22,589 bases of DNA. Source: a virus. The position numbers and the translations under genes are program-made. Where the stretch lies: positions 1 to 22,589 of the IMG/VR virus record IMGVR_UViG_3300002132_000015. One strand, written 5' to 3'. Shown here piece after piece: positions 8,461 through 17,495 of the stretch. The notes beneath the pieces were generated by a model, which made no database searches, was not told the origin of the DNA, and worked only from the letters and a program-made list of their open reading frames with translations. Each line of letters starts with the position of its first letter. Within the stretch, counting starts at the first letter, position 1.

Positions 8461-9528
8461 TTATCCTAATGTTAAAGCATATGAAACGGCAATATCTTCC
8501 GCTTGCGTACCACTAACAGCACCAGATGTACCTGCAGGGCTTGCCCATACTGCGCCATCCCACACTTCAAGAGCTTTAGAATTAGTGTTATATCGTGTCA
8601 TTCCAACTGGTAGTGCTCCGTAGCCTAACAGCCCGCTTGGACGTTGGGCATCAGAACCAACTGGCGGAACAAAGCCTCCAGTTCCTTGAATCTTAAAATA
8701 TCCTGTTCCGCTCTGTGCAATTTGACTAATTGCTCCGGATACCACATTAGTAATAGTGTTATCAGATATTTTAAAATTGCCTAATCTAACGCCGCCGCTG
8801 CCATTGCCGTCGATATATAAATCTAAACCAGTAGTTGTTGTGATTTCGTTGTCGCGGAACATCAAGTTGCCAATGTCTAGTGACGGGACTTGAATAGAGT
8901 CTGTGTAAAAATCGTAAGCGTAAACTGCTCTCCAACGGAAAGCAGCAGAACCTAAATCATATGTGTTGTCAGCTTGGGGAACTAGATCACTTTTGATACT
9001 AGCATTAATTACAATCTCGTCTGTTAGTGCATCACCGATCTGAATGTTGCCACCAATTACCACGTTGCCAGTAGCGTTTATATTTCCAGTGACATCTAGA
9101 TTACCTGTAATATTTGTATTTCCAATAATGCTAACAATGCCTGCTCCGTTTGGAACTAGTTCAATAGAACTGTTAGAAACTGTTGTGGAAATTTTATTAC
9201 CTTGCAATTGCAAATCGTCGATTTGTAATCTGCTGTGATATACTGTAGCTTCGCCTGCCGCTGCGGAAAAGTTAATTGTCGAACTATCACTAGTAATAGT
9301 ATTACCTGTGATGTGAAAGTTTCCAACGTTTAGTTGATTGTCGACTGTAATATCAGTAGTGTGGATGTGACCGTTGACGTCTAAGTCTGTAGAGGGCGTG
9401 GCTGTCTTGACACCAATTCTAGAATTGTTTACATCTATATATAATAGATCAGTCTCAAAAGCTAAATCTACGCCTGCGCGAAGTAGATTTGACTTCAGGA
9501 GTTGACCTGAAATGCGACCAATAGCCAT
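8461..9528 (-). CDS. Fibre-type virion structural protein, GRISGQLL family (355 aa)
   Basis: ATG at 9526-9528 follows a strong GAGGAG site. The N-terminus (IGRISGQLLKSNLLRAGVDL, then LLYIDVNNSRIGVKTATP) is shared with the 363-aa gene upstream, so they are paralogues. The middle is made of short repeats of the type GNTNITGNLDVTGNINATGN, typical of trimeric beta-fibre shafts. NTYDLGSAAFRWRAVYAYDF follows, a motif common in phage tail fibres. A C-terminal module (RYNT...LEVWDGAVWAS) and the end AVSYALTLG parallel the other paralogue. Probable role: a fibre or whisker subunit. The gene is preceded by an unusually long leader with its own late-type promoter, so it may be expressed separately from the upstream paralogue. 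Confidence 0.85.
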   Translation of the reverse strand: MAIGRISGQLLKSNLLRAGVDLAFETDLLYIDVNNSRIGVKTATPSTDLDVNGHIHTTDITVDNQLNVGNFHITGNTITSDSSTINFSAAAGEATVYHSRLQIDDLQLQGNKISTTVSNSSIELVPNGAGIVSIIGNTNITGNLDVTGNINATGNVVIGGNIQIGDALTDEIVINASIKSDLVPQADNTYDLGSAAFRWRAVYAYDFYTDSIQVPSLDIGNLMFRDNEITTTTGLDLYIDGNGSGGVRLGNFKISDNTITNVVSGAISQIAQSGTGYFKIQGTGGFVPPVGSDAQRPSGLLGYGALPVGMTRYNTNSKALEVWDGAVWASPAGTSGAVSGTQAEDIAVSYALTLG

Positions 9529-9645
9529 GCGCTCTCCTCATAAGCAAAACACCGTGTTGCACGGATAACCAATTTCTCATCCCTTACGGGCTCTTTGCTG
9601 GTTTACCACAGTCGGATCCTGCTCAGGTCGGCCAACCCTTGCAAT
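9529..9645 (-). other. Long structured 5' leader upstream of the 355-aa fibre gene
   Basis: This is the longest non-coding stretch in the window. If transcription starts about 6 nt downstream of the CATAAATA motif at 9652-9659, the leader is about 117 nt. Read on the minus strand it holds several small potential hairpins: GGTT-GGCC-GACC, CCC-GTAA-GGG (GNRA-type loop), and CCGTG-CAA-CACGG at 9552-9564 shortly before the GAGGAG site. It matches no RNA family that I can name. It might control translation or attenuate transcription. Confidence 0.45.
9552..9564 (-). other. Hairpin CCGTG-CAA-CACGG in the leader
   Basis: A perfect 5-bp stem with a 3-nt loop lies about 15 nt upstream of the ribosome binding site of the 355-aa gene. 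On the minus strand it is followed by TGTTTT. It resembles a weak intrinsic terminator or a structure near the translation start. The stem is short and the U-tract interrupted, so termination is doubtful. Confidence 0.35.
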
Positions 9646-9651
9646 TACATG

Positions 9652-9659
9652 TATTTATG
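9652..9659 (-). promoter_or_regulatory. T4-type late promoter candidate CATAAATA
   Basis: The minus strand reads CATAAATA, seven of eight bases of the T4 late consensus. It lies in the gap between the two fibre paralogues, 12 bases past the stop codon of the first. It would drive the 355-aa gene and the downstream genes through the long leader at 9529-9645. Confidence 0.55.
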
Positions 9660-9671
9660 CCTTTGGAGAAA

Positions 9672-10763
9672 TTACCCTAGAACAAGAGTCCAGACATTGC
9701 CTAGATCGTTCATAATAGTTTCAGTGACCTCATCACCACCACCTGTGGATAATGTCCATACGCTGCCATCGAAACATTCAAGATATTCTTGATCAGTATT
9801 CCATCTCGTTTCACCTAACTCCGGCGATGTTGTTCGTTCTGCATCTGTACCTGCAGGAATCAGCATTCCGTTGTCACCTGCGAATCGATAATAAGATGGG
9901 CCAGTCACTGCTAAATTTAGTGATGTATTATTGAGATTAGTAATATCACTATCTTCCCACTTAGTACGTTCAATATAAACAATACCAGTATCGGGATTTA
10001 AAGTAATGTCTTCATTAGACTGCTGTGCAAAAATTTGATTATTAACGCCGTCTAGTTTAGTCTGTCCACTGATTGTGACAGATAGCGGGTGTAATGCATC
10101 TCCGGCATATCCGCCTTTTGTAATGTTAGTCCAGTCTGGAGAATGTAGTTGTGCCCAGCGTCTAGGACTAGAGTCACCTGCATCCCATCCCAACGTATAT
10201 GTTAGGTCGTCCCCGGGTAATATGTCTTGAGTAAAGTCTGTATTAACTGTGACAGTATCAAGAATTTGATCGCCAAGTATTAATCGACTTAATCCAATTA
10301 AATCGCCATCCATGGAAATATTTCCGCTAACTGCAAGATTACCTGTGATGAGTGTGTTTGCTGCCAGTTCGATTGTTCCTGAACCGTTTGGATCAAATAC
10401 AATGTTAGAATCGTTGACACTAGAAATTAAATTTCCATCAAGTACTAAATTAGCGGTTGTTAATCTATCATGAAATATTTCGCTGCCAGCAATATAAACA
10501 TCAATGCCGCCTACACTTGTTGTAAATATACCAGCTGTATTAATTCTAATATTATCAATAGAAGCAGTGTTGTCACTGGTTAATTCTAATGAGTGTATAT
10601 CTAAATTAACATCTAGATCGTAAATTGGTGAGGTTTGATTAATACTAATCTTTTGATTAGATACATCAAGATACAGTAAGTCTGTTTCAACAGATAAGTC
10701 AACCCCAGCGCGGAGTAAGTTGTCGTCTAATAGTTGACCACCTATGCGCCCTACTTGACTCAT
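9672..10763 (-). CDS. Fibre-type virion structural protein, GRIGGQLL family (363 aa)
   Basis: ATG at 10761-10763 follows the stop codon of the 191-aa gene by 2 nt with no strong ribosome binding site, so translation is probably coupled. The N-terminus (VGRIGGQLLDDNLLRAGVDL, then LLYLDVSNQKISI) pairs it with the 355-aa protein. The centre has fibre-like repeats (NTLITGNLAVSGNISMDGD) followed by LTYTLGWDAGDSSPRRWAQL, a variant of the YDLGS...RW motif of phage fibres. The C-terminus has PAGTDAERT, RWNTDQEYLECFDGSVW and the end VWTLVLG. The two paralogues are clearly diverged at DNA level. Probable role: a second fibre or whisker subunit, perhaps forming a heteromer with its paralogue. Confidence 0.85.
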   Translation of the reverse strand: MSQVGRIGGQLLDDNLLRAGVDLSVETDLLYLDVSNQKISINQTSPIYDLDVNLDIHSLELTSDNTASIDNIRINTAGIFTTSVGGIDVYIAGSEIFHDRLTTANLVLDGNLISSVNDSNIVFDPNGSGTIELAANTLITGNLAVSGNISMDGDLIGLSRLILGDQILDTVTVNTDFTQDILPGDDLTYTLGWDAGDSSPRRWAQLHSPDWTNITKGGYAGDALHPLSVTISGQTKLDGVNNQIFAQQSNEDITLNPDTGIVYIERTKWEDSDITNLNNTSLNLAVTGPSYYRFAGDNGMLIPAGTDAERTTSPELGETRWNTDQEYLECFDGSVWTLSTGGGDEVTETIMNDLGNVWTLVLG

Positions 10764-13584: not shown

Positions 13585-13591
13585 ACACTGA

Positions 13592-13599
13592 TATTTAAG
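13592..13599 (-). promoter_or_regulatory. Weak late-type promoter candidate CTTAAATA
   Basis: The minus strand reads CTTAAATA, matching TATAAATA at six of eight positions. It lies between the gp23 terminator and the 89-aa gene, where a promoter is needed if the terminator is efficient. The predicted start falls about 2 nt before the ATG. Confidence 0.35.
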
Positions 13600-13605
13600 T
13601 CAAAC

Positions 13606-13629
13606 AAAAAGGCCCCGAAGGGCCTTTTT
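13606..13629 (-). terminator. Strong intrinsic terminator after gp23
   Basis: AAAAA-GGCCC-CGAA-GGGCC-TTTTT: a perfect 5-bp GC stem with a 4-nt loop, extended by A-T pairs and followed by a T-run, 21 bases past the gp23 stop. The symmetric A and T runs could let it act on both strands. It separates the head operon from the fibre region. Confidence 0.92.
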
Positions 13630-13649
13630 GAAACGCGATAAAACGTTAA

Positions 13650-17427: not shown

Positions 17428-17467
17428 AGTGTTCTCCTTCAAGATATTGGTTTATTTGGCTGTATTC

Positions 17468-17475
17468 TATTTAAC
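17468..17475 (-). promoter_or_regulatory. Weak late-type promoter candidate GTTAAATA
   Basis: GTTAAATA on the minus strand lies in the 68-nt gap between the 217-aa gene and the gp67-like gene, about 40 nt before the start codon. It matches six of eight bases of TATAAATA and could boost expression of the core, protease, scaffold and capsid genes. Confidence 0.3.
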
Positions 17476-17495
17476 ACTAATATTTTAATCCAGGG

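Follow-up and report, generated by a model that had tools for sequence, protein, structure and literature searches.

A conserved structured leader that may control translation of fibre-like genes in uncultured T4-like phages

A long gap before a fibre-like gene

The DNA analysed here is a 22,589-base virus fragment from IMG/VR, called the window below, whose coordinates are used throughout. On the minus strand, Pfam recognizes a Gp23 capsid protein and a T4 portal, which belong to a T4-type structural module, and the same strand holds a pair of fibre-like paralogues, the leader between them, and all parts of that leader (Table 1). An earlier note, made from the letters alone, had claimed a 143-nt non-coding gap between the paralogues, and this gap lies at 9529–9671. 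Its estimate of 2–20 nt for the typical gap of the region is roughly right: the remaining gaps of the cluster mostly measure 2–28 nt, although two are longer, at ~53 nt (17443–17495) and 65 nt (13585–13649). The 65-nt gap, the second-longest in the structural cluster, adjoins the Gp23 gene. Elsewhere on the minus strand, an open frame of at least 724 amino acids (3–2174) runs off the contig end. The upstream paralogue is preceded by a gap of only 2 nt and has no leader. Neither of the two fibre-like genes has a Pfam match, their best PHROG matches are weak, and an AlphaFold2 model of the fibre is poor (pLDDT 50).

Read in the RNA sense, the gap contains, in order, the promoter CATAAATA, hairpin P1, the core ACUGUGGU, strand AACC of helix P2, hairpin P3, the partner strand GGUU, hairpin P4, the Shine-Dalgarno sequence AGGAG, and AUG. 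The late-type promoter had been reported in the earlier note; among the matches listed, TAAATA lies upstream of the core in all 211 untruncated homologous leaders, 37–41 nt away in 158 of them, and by itself the motif shows no excess in the window (38 near-matches versus 49 expected by chance). The GNRA-type CCC-GTAA-GGG hairpin of that note is present at 9590–9581, and the ribosome binding site is strong, as it had said, and also well spaced. The letters of its CCGTG-CAA-CACGG stem are also there, but homologues back only three pairs around a 7-nt loop, since many of them do not keep the fourth pair intact. The element is larger than described before, extending from 9659 to ~9493 and reaching into the gene; this extension into coding sequence, and a long-range pairing with the first codons, had been missed. 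The single-sequence fold of the window is unremarkable (−40.3 kcal/mol, z −1.09), with neither strand unusual, and the evidence for a structured RNA is comparative.

Table 1 Features of the leader and its flanking genes in window coordinates.
Feature	Position	Strand	Basis
363-aa upstream paralogue, without leader	9672–10763	−	N-terminus MSQVGRIGGQLL
T4-type late promoter CATAAATA	9652–9659	−	Direct reading; TAAATA in homologues
P1 hairpin: outer UUGC/GCAG, inner GGGUU/GACCU, around GGCC	9619–9644	−	Regional fold and 28 homologues
P1 loop segment GGCCGACC (P5 5′ strand), complementary to coding UUGGUCG	9626–9633	−	Loop/codon counts in homologues
Invariant core ACUGUGGU	9605–9612	−	50 diverse leaders
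P2 5′ strand AACC	9600–9603	−	P2 pairing in homologues
GCA, possible 3-bp pseudoknot stem with core UGU (9610–9608)	9596–9598	−	Pair variation
P3 removable hairpin AGCCC-GUAA-GGGAU (contains the GNRA-type hairpin of the earlier note)	9579–9592	−	Missing in minimal class
P2 3′ strand GGUU	9567–9570	−	P2 pairing in homologues
P4 hairpin CCG-UGCAACA-CGG	9552–9564	−	Variants in homologues
Shine-Dalgarno AGGAG	9534–9538	−	Direct reading and homologues
Coding UUGGUCG (P5 3′ strand), codons 3–5	9515–9521	−	Codon bias and GGAC/GUCC variants
Codons 8–12 GGU CAA CUC CUG AAG, constrained; CUCCU complementary to AGGAG	9493–9507	−	Leu-10 CUC bias
355-aa fibre-like protein, downstream of leader	8461–9528	−	Weak PHROG matches, one a tail spike family

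Leader homologues and compensatory changes in P1–P4

In environmental T4-like contigs, homologous leaders stand before fibre genes that start with M(A/S)xGRISGPLLK. Searching with the downstream fibre protein yielded 80 loci, and in nearly all relatives with a delimitable upstream gene the gap measures 120–170 nt, regardless of the identity of that gene; the leader goes with the downstream gene even where another gene, of ~950 amino acids, stands upstream. Two loci (L045 and L047) have a 35-nt gap and no leader. Two scans with core patterns returned at least 119 and at least 120 stretches, the true number being larger. Among the matches listed, 299 core matches occur in 320 sequences, and 291 of them stand directly before a gene starting Mx(1-4)G(R/K/Q)(I/V/L)xG; the eight without a fibre start were excluded, three of them being cut by contig ends and two looking like chance. 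Merging identical records reduced 291 to 215 unique leaders and, after a later scan, 294 to 217, giving at least 217 unique leaders overall.

The 129 complete leader-bearing products (L002–L382) share a start type and differ in length, with 67 of ~350 amino acids, 16 of 380–700, 45 of >700, and one of 73. The loci also contain 61 leaderless GRISG paralogues, many of which have their own TAAATA no more than 30 nt from the start, and the same phages seem to express these from simple short leaders. Differential control of the two fibre types, raised in the earlier note, is, in the absence of expression data, no more than consistent with an upstream paralogue that has no leader and with a leader that stays with the downstream gene.

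P1 drifts in sequence with its pairing kept: in 28 homologues, all 11 pairs show double changes and 84.5% of cells are paired, the window's P1 being weaker than most homologous copies. At six loci (L058, L087, L115, L171, L177, and L194), the P1 region is enlarged by an extra hairpin, mostly with GCUGAGCAGGAC or a similar tail. Seven of the eight core positions are invariant in 50 leaders, which were selected by a pattern that includes the core, and the remaining one exceeds 90%. P2 is a long-range helix whose pairing is kept in 204 of 215 unique leaders among the matches listed, through eight strand combinations (AACC/GGUU, AGCC/GGCU, UACC/GGUA, AUCC/GGGU, CGCC/GGCG, CGCC/GGUG, CUCC/GGGG, and ACCC/GGGU); the remaining 11 have one A–C mismatch. 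In the type 2 class, which has GGG-ACAGGAU-CCC hairpins, P2 is extended to 6 bp and the added position is U–A or C–G. The variable pair of the possible UGU/GCA stem is U–G in 207, U–A in 6, and C–G in 2 of 217 leaders among the matches listed, with GCG in two others. A hairpin of UGUGG with CC.GCA proposed by RNAalifold competes with P2, and only its UGU/GCA part was retained as possible.

P4 consists of three pairs and a 7-nt loop, mostly UGAAACN or ACAGGAU. Its stems read CCG/CGG or CGG/CCG in type 1 and GGG-ACAGGAU-CCC, GGC/GCC, or GCG/CGC in type 2, and the loop types are interchangeable. On a tree of the protein N-termini, the state of P3 changes no fewer than 32 times and the P4 type no fewer than eight times. 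A GGA motif is typical of CsrA/RsmE-type hairpins, which the type 2 loop ACAGGAU resembles and the type 1 loops do not; CsrA/Rsm binding at this loop was set aside since type 1 loops have no GGA.

RNAalifold recovered only five pairs, none with double changes, from a mixed alignment (A2), because the P4 hairpins of the two types do not line up; type 1 leaders alone were then used, in a hand-assembled alignment (A3). Across P1–P4 in 28 homologues, 90.3% of cells are paired, and both partners have changed in 14 of 21 pairs. Double-change cells number 75 against 24.6 in shuffles, with none of 500 shuffles as high, and sliding the partners by 1–3 columns destroys the signal (0.066–0.094 versus 0.381). 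The shuffle control leaves relatedness in place, but the slid versions retain it and still lose the signal; all our evidence is comparative, and related sequences inflate p-values.

A covariance model (R1) built from 28 type 1 leaders matched 88 of 99 loci once each, without a second copy, and left 11 without a match; these 99 are a part of the loci collected. The matches include type 2 leaders, which were absent from the training set. The window's copy scores 98.2 bits (E 1e-24) and is the sole window match below E 0.4, the window itself having been in the training set. The leader family, defined by a GRISG-type fibre gene preceded by P1, P2, P4, and the ACUGUGGU core, includes the window's copy. 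The 4227 covariance models of Rfam 15 gave no match for the window at the gathering threshold, none for 9400–9800 at E 10, and none for five related loci at E 1. Searches of INPHARED found no isolate carrying the leader: blastn of leaders returned chance matches only, or none, tblastn against named phages returned only relatives below 60% identity, or in one search none, and the regions of two such relatives, Melnitz-3 and S-MbCM6, have no model match. In GTDB genomes, 198 stretches fit a peptide pattern and none encodes a relative. Judged by comparison of sequences, the leader is very likely, as regards its structure, a new RNA family conserved in many uncultured T4-like phages. The suggestion of a phage RNA element in the earlier note is strongly supported by conservation of sequence and structure with compensatory changes, and the lack of conservation in homologous gaps that would have refuted it was not encountered across the homologous leaders.

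Pairing between the leader and the first codons

In the P1 loop, GACC is the complement of the GGUC that spans codons 4–5 of the fibre gene, a pairing that we call P5. Among the matches listed, a loop with GACC (158) or GGCC (7) accounts for 165 of the 201 GGUC genes with a P1 region, and a GUCC loop goes with GGAC coding in six of six cases, with crossed combinations seen 0 and 0 times (Fisher 3e-11, a value that is optimistic because the sequences are related). A scan of all viral contigs for a GTCCA loop before the core, prompted by two of its eventual hits, gave 64 loci, seven of which have the leader, and all seven read GGAC. A protein tree of 201 distinct N-termini, built by a quick method from few columns with the first ten residues left out, requires two separate GGAC origins. 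The fifth loop base tracks the wobble base of codon 3 in 126 of 160 cases (115.7 when shuffled; 1/5000), and codons 2–6 pair better with the P1 region than their synonymous versions do in 87% of 183 cases, and no other segment does so for these codons.

P5 is not universal, because some loops are exceptions and some leaders lack P1. None of the five 4-mers sought is found for 29 GGUC genes, two others have UUCC or GCCC, and five leaders have no P1. Genes with GGAA coding (4) or GGGC coding (1) have no perfect loop partner, and the four GGAAGA-coding genes, of two origins, are also without the GACC loop. The GACC loop is largely lost in a clade whose genes start AUGGCC. At one locus (L061), GGCCAA directly at the start codon finds its complement in the loop UUGGUC, a single case that could be chance. 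The window's own P5 needs GGCCGA, with two G–U pairs, or an opening of the stem for CGACC.

The coding side was compared between 208 leader-bearing N-termini and, at the same loci, 61 paralogues that have no leader. The GR and GPLLK codons are frozen only in leader-bearing genes: Leu-10 is CUC in 171 of 201 Leu codons with a leader versus 0 of 43 without, Arg-5 is CGN in 204/208 versus 16/56, and Gly-4 is GGU in 197/208 versus 44/61 (208/215 against a background of 0.42 among the matches listed). CUC makes up 3% of Leu in later codons of leader-bearing genes and ~20% at the nearest conserved Leu positions. Further along, at codons ~14–41 of related loci, some codons are used that are rare later in the gene, for example Glu GAG in 173 of 197 at one position versus 10% later, as if the N-terminal module of the fibre genes were of another origin or under another constraint.

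GGAG begins 8–13 nt before the start codon in 213 of 217 records among the matches listed, which is all in which it was located. AGGAG is complementary to CUCUU (CUCCU in the window, with five Watson-Crick pairs), and no partner is settled for GGUCCGCUCUUAAAG. Spacers that extend the complementarity of AGGAG go with CUC (160/20 versus 18/19, Fisher 2e-7), an association that may reflect clade structure. Because the Shine-Dalgarno sequence is invariant, its helix with CUCUU can covary almost not at all. In an energy test of synonymous codons 7–12, no single partner stands out, the Shine-Dalgarno included. Pairing of AAGAGC in P3 with coding GCUCUU was also considered; the minimal class lacks AAGAGC and keeps CUC, so this partner cannot be general.

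A proposed latch on initiation and its alternatives

Among the T4 genes compared here, gene 38 is itself a tail-fibre gene. According to PMC3014915, RNA structure likewise lies in the initiation regions of the T4 tail genes 38 and 25, where a hairpin bridges a split region and shortens an SD–AUG distance of 22–27 nt; in the new element, that distance is already normal, and the criterion of a split region is not fulfilled. The same source describes inhibitory helices in T4 e, soc, 49, and I-TevI that, in a similar manner, pair over the Shine-Dalgarno or AUG, with a late promoter of the TATAAATA type nearby. The inhibitory structure of T4 e has the late promoter within its 5′ strand, and late transcripts escape it (PMC3014915), whereas here the promoter precedes the whole element, standing before P1 in the window, so late transcripts carry the element and the criterion of a gene e type escape is not fulfilled. 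The RegA operator, unstructured and A+U-rich with 5′ poly(A) over AUG (PMC3014915), is not matched either, as the site reads AGGAGAGCGCAUGGCUAUUGG. The T4 gene 32 pseudoknot (autogenous, gp32; PMC3014915) resembles the new element as a structured T4-type leader with pseudoknot-like pairing before one gene; the new element differs in the late fibre gene that it serves, in its larger size, in its pairing with coding sequence, and in its lack of an identified protein partner, and it does not belong to the gene 32 type, the gene being fibre-like. The new element therefore fails one defining test of each of these systems, while belonging to the same general arena. Conserved structured 5′ leaders also occur in T4-like aquatic phages and cyanophages as the manA and wcaG motifs (RF01745 and RF01761), which precede metabolic and light-related genes (PMC2864571), and neither matches the new element. 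A glutamine riboswitch is placed at the tmRNA gene of Melnitz (PMC9004378), and none of these known leaders is described at a fibre gene. No description of such a fibre-gene leader was found in the open-licence literature of PMC, a search that does not cover paywalled work.

We propose, with a probability of about 0.6, that the leader is a conserved cis-acting RNA that extends ~36 nt into the fibre gene and acts as a translational latch on the initiation region. The proposal draws on conservation, on covariation of P1, P2, P4, and P5, and on codon constraint seen only with the leader, all of it read from aligned sequences. The late transcript would start just before P1, a start inferred from the T4 rule, and would form P1, a core that P2 closes and that can include P3, and P4. 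The loop of P1 would pair back to codons 3–5 just downstream of AUG, and codons 10–11 may offer CUC(U/C)U as a partner to the Shine-Dalgarno. Closing P5 would put the initiation region inside a loop; because the 30S subunit requires this stretch single-stranded, its binding should be hindered in the closed form, and the element would set fibre translation. By pairing with the first codons, the first hairpin probably governs synthesis of the fibre protein; the direction in which P5 would shift translation, down or up, is only inferred. A factor reading the invariant core, and the P4 loop, would open or stabilize the closed form; our guess, which is not shown, is that the fibre itself, or some other late protein of the phage, plays this role in autogenous control. 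Latch function, effect on translation, and recognition factor are all inferences in the absence of expression, probing, or mutational data. In a more far-reaching reading, less likely than not, the 5′ hairpin of the late mRNA would latch onto codons 3–5 and clamp the ribosome site until a factor bound to the invariant core, such as fibre protein awaiting assembly or its chaperone, frees or fixes it. Fibre synthesis would then be tied to the assembly of virions throughout a large T4-like lineage of uncultured phages.

The main rival is a translation enhancer or mRNA stabilizer that works without switching: the late transcript would be shielded by its 5′ hairpin and the compact core, which would also keep the initiation region open or well spaced. 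We consider it rather unlikely, while noting that P1 stands at or near the predicted transcript start, that the Shine-Dalgarno is strong and well placed, that a fibre is, by inference, needed in quantity, and that RNA structure aids initiation at T4 genes 38 and 25 (PMC3014915). Against it, the Shine-Dalgarno and AUG are already close, so there is no split spacing to mend, and the extreme conservation of core and loop exceeds, as we infer, what a stabilizing hairpin needs. P5 also covers codons inside the 30S footprint, where hindrance rather than help would be expected.

A metabolite-sensing riboswitch for the fibre gene could present the same compact core with invariant unpaired residues, pseudoknot-like pairing in P2 and UGU–GCA, and interchangeable peripheral hairpins. 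We regard it as improbable: the element adjoins one structural gene family only, a gene context that argues against it in the absence of ligand data, and no Rfam riboswitch matched. A recombination cassette at the DNA level, with leader and N-terminus as crossover homology for fibre exchange and RNA pairing incidental, predicts sequence identity, yet P1 and P2 change letters with pairing kept and P5 changes on both sides together. It is very improbable as the sole explanation, even with the same leader and N-terminus before products of ~350, 500, and >1000 amino acids, different upstream genes, and a P3 that comes and goes; a recombination role in addition to the RNA role may exist. A decayed gene or small ORF, for which the 143 nt leave room and a 65-aa plus-strand ORF overlaps (9595–9792), can practically be discarded given a length of 120–170 nt, hairpin insertions of many sizes, and conservation that tracks RNA pairing.

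According to PMC3014915 (2010), the gene 32 pseudoknot may be the sole viral pseudoknot in translational autoregulation, and no riboswitch or trans-acting sRNA of T4 had been functionally characterized as of 2010. A widespread, compensated RNA that links a leader hairpin to the first fibre codons offers a case in which RNA control of fibre dosage can be tested directly. The codon constraint also shows that the 'synonymous' sites at the start of these fibre genes carry structure, and the leader provides an anchor by which fibre genes of uncultured phages can be located.
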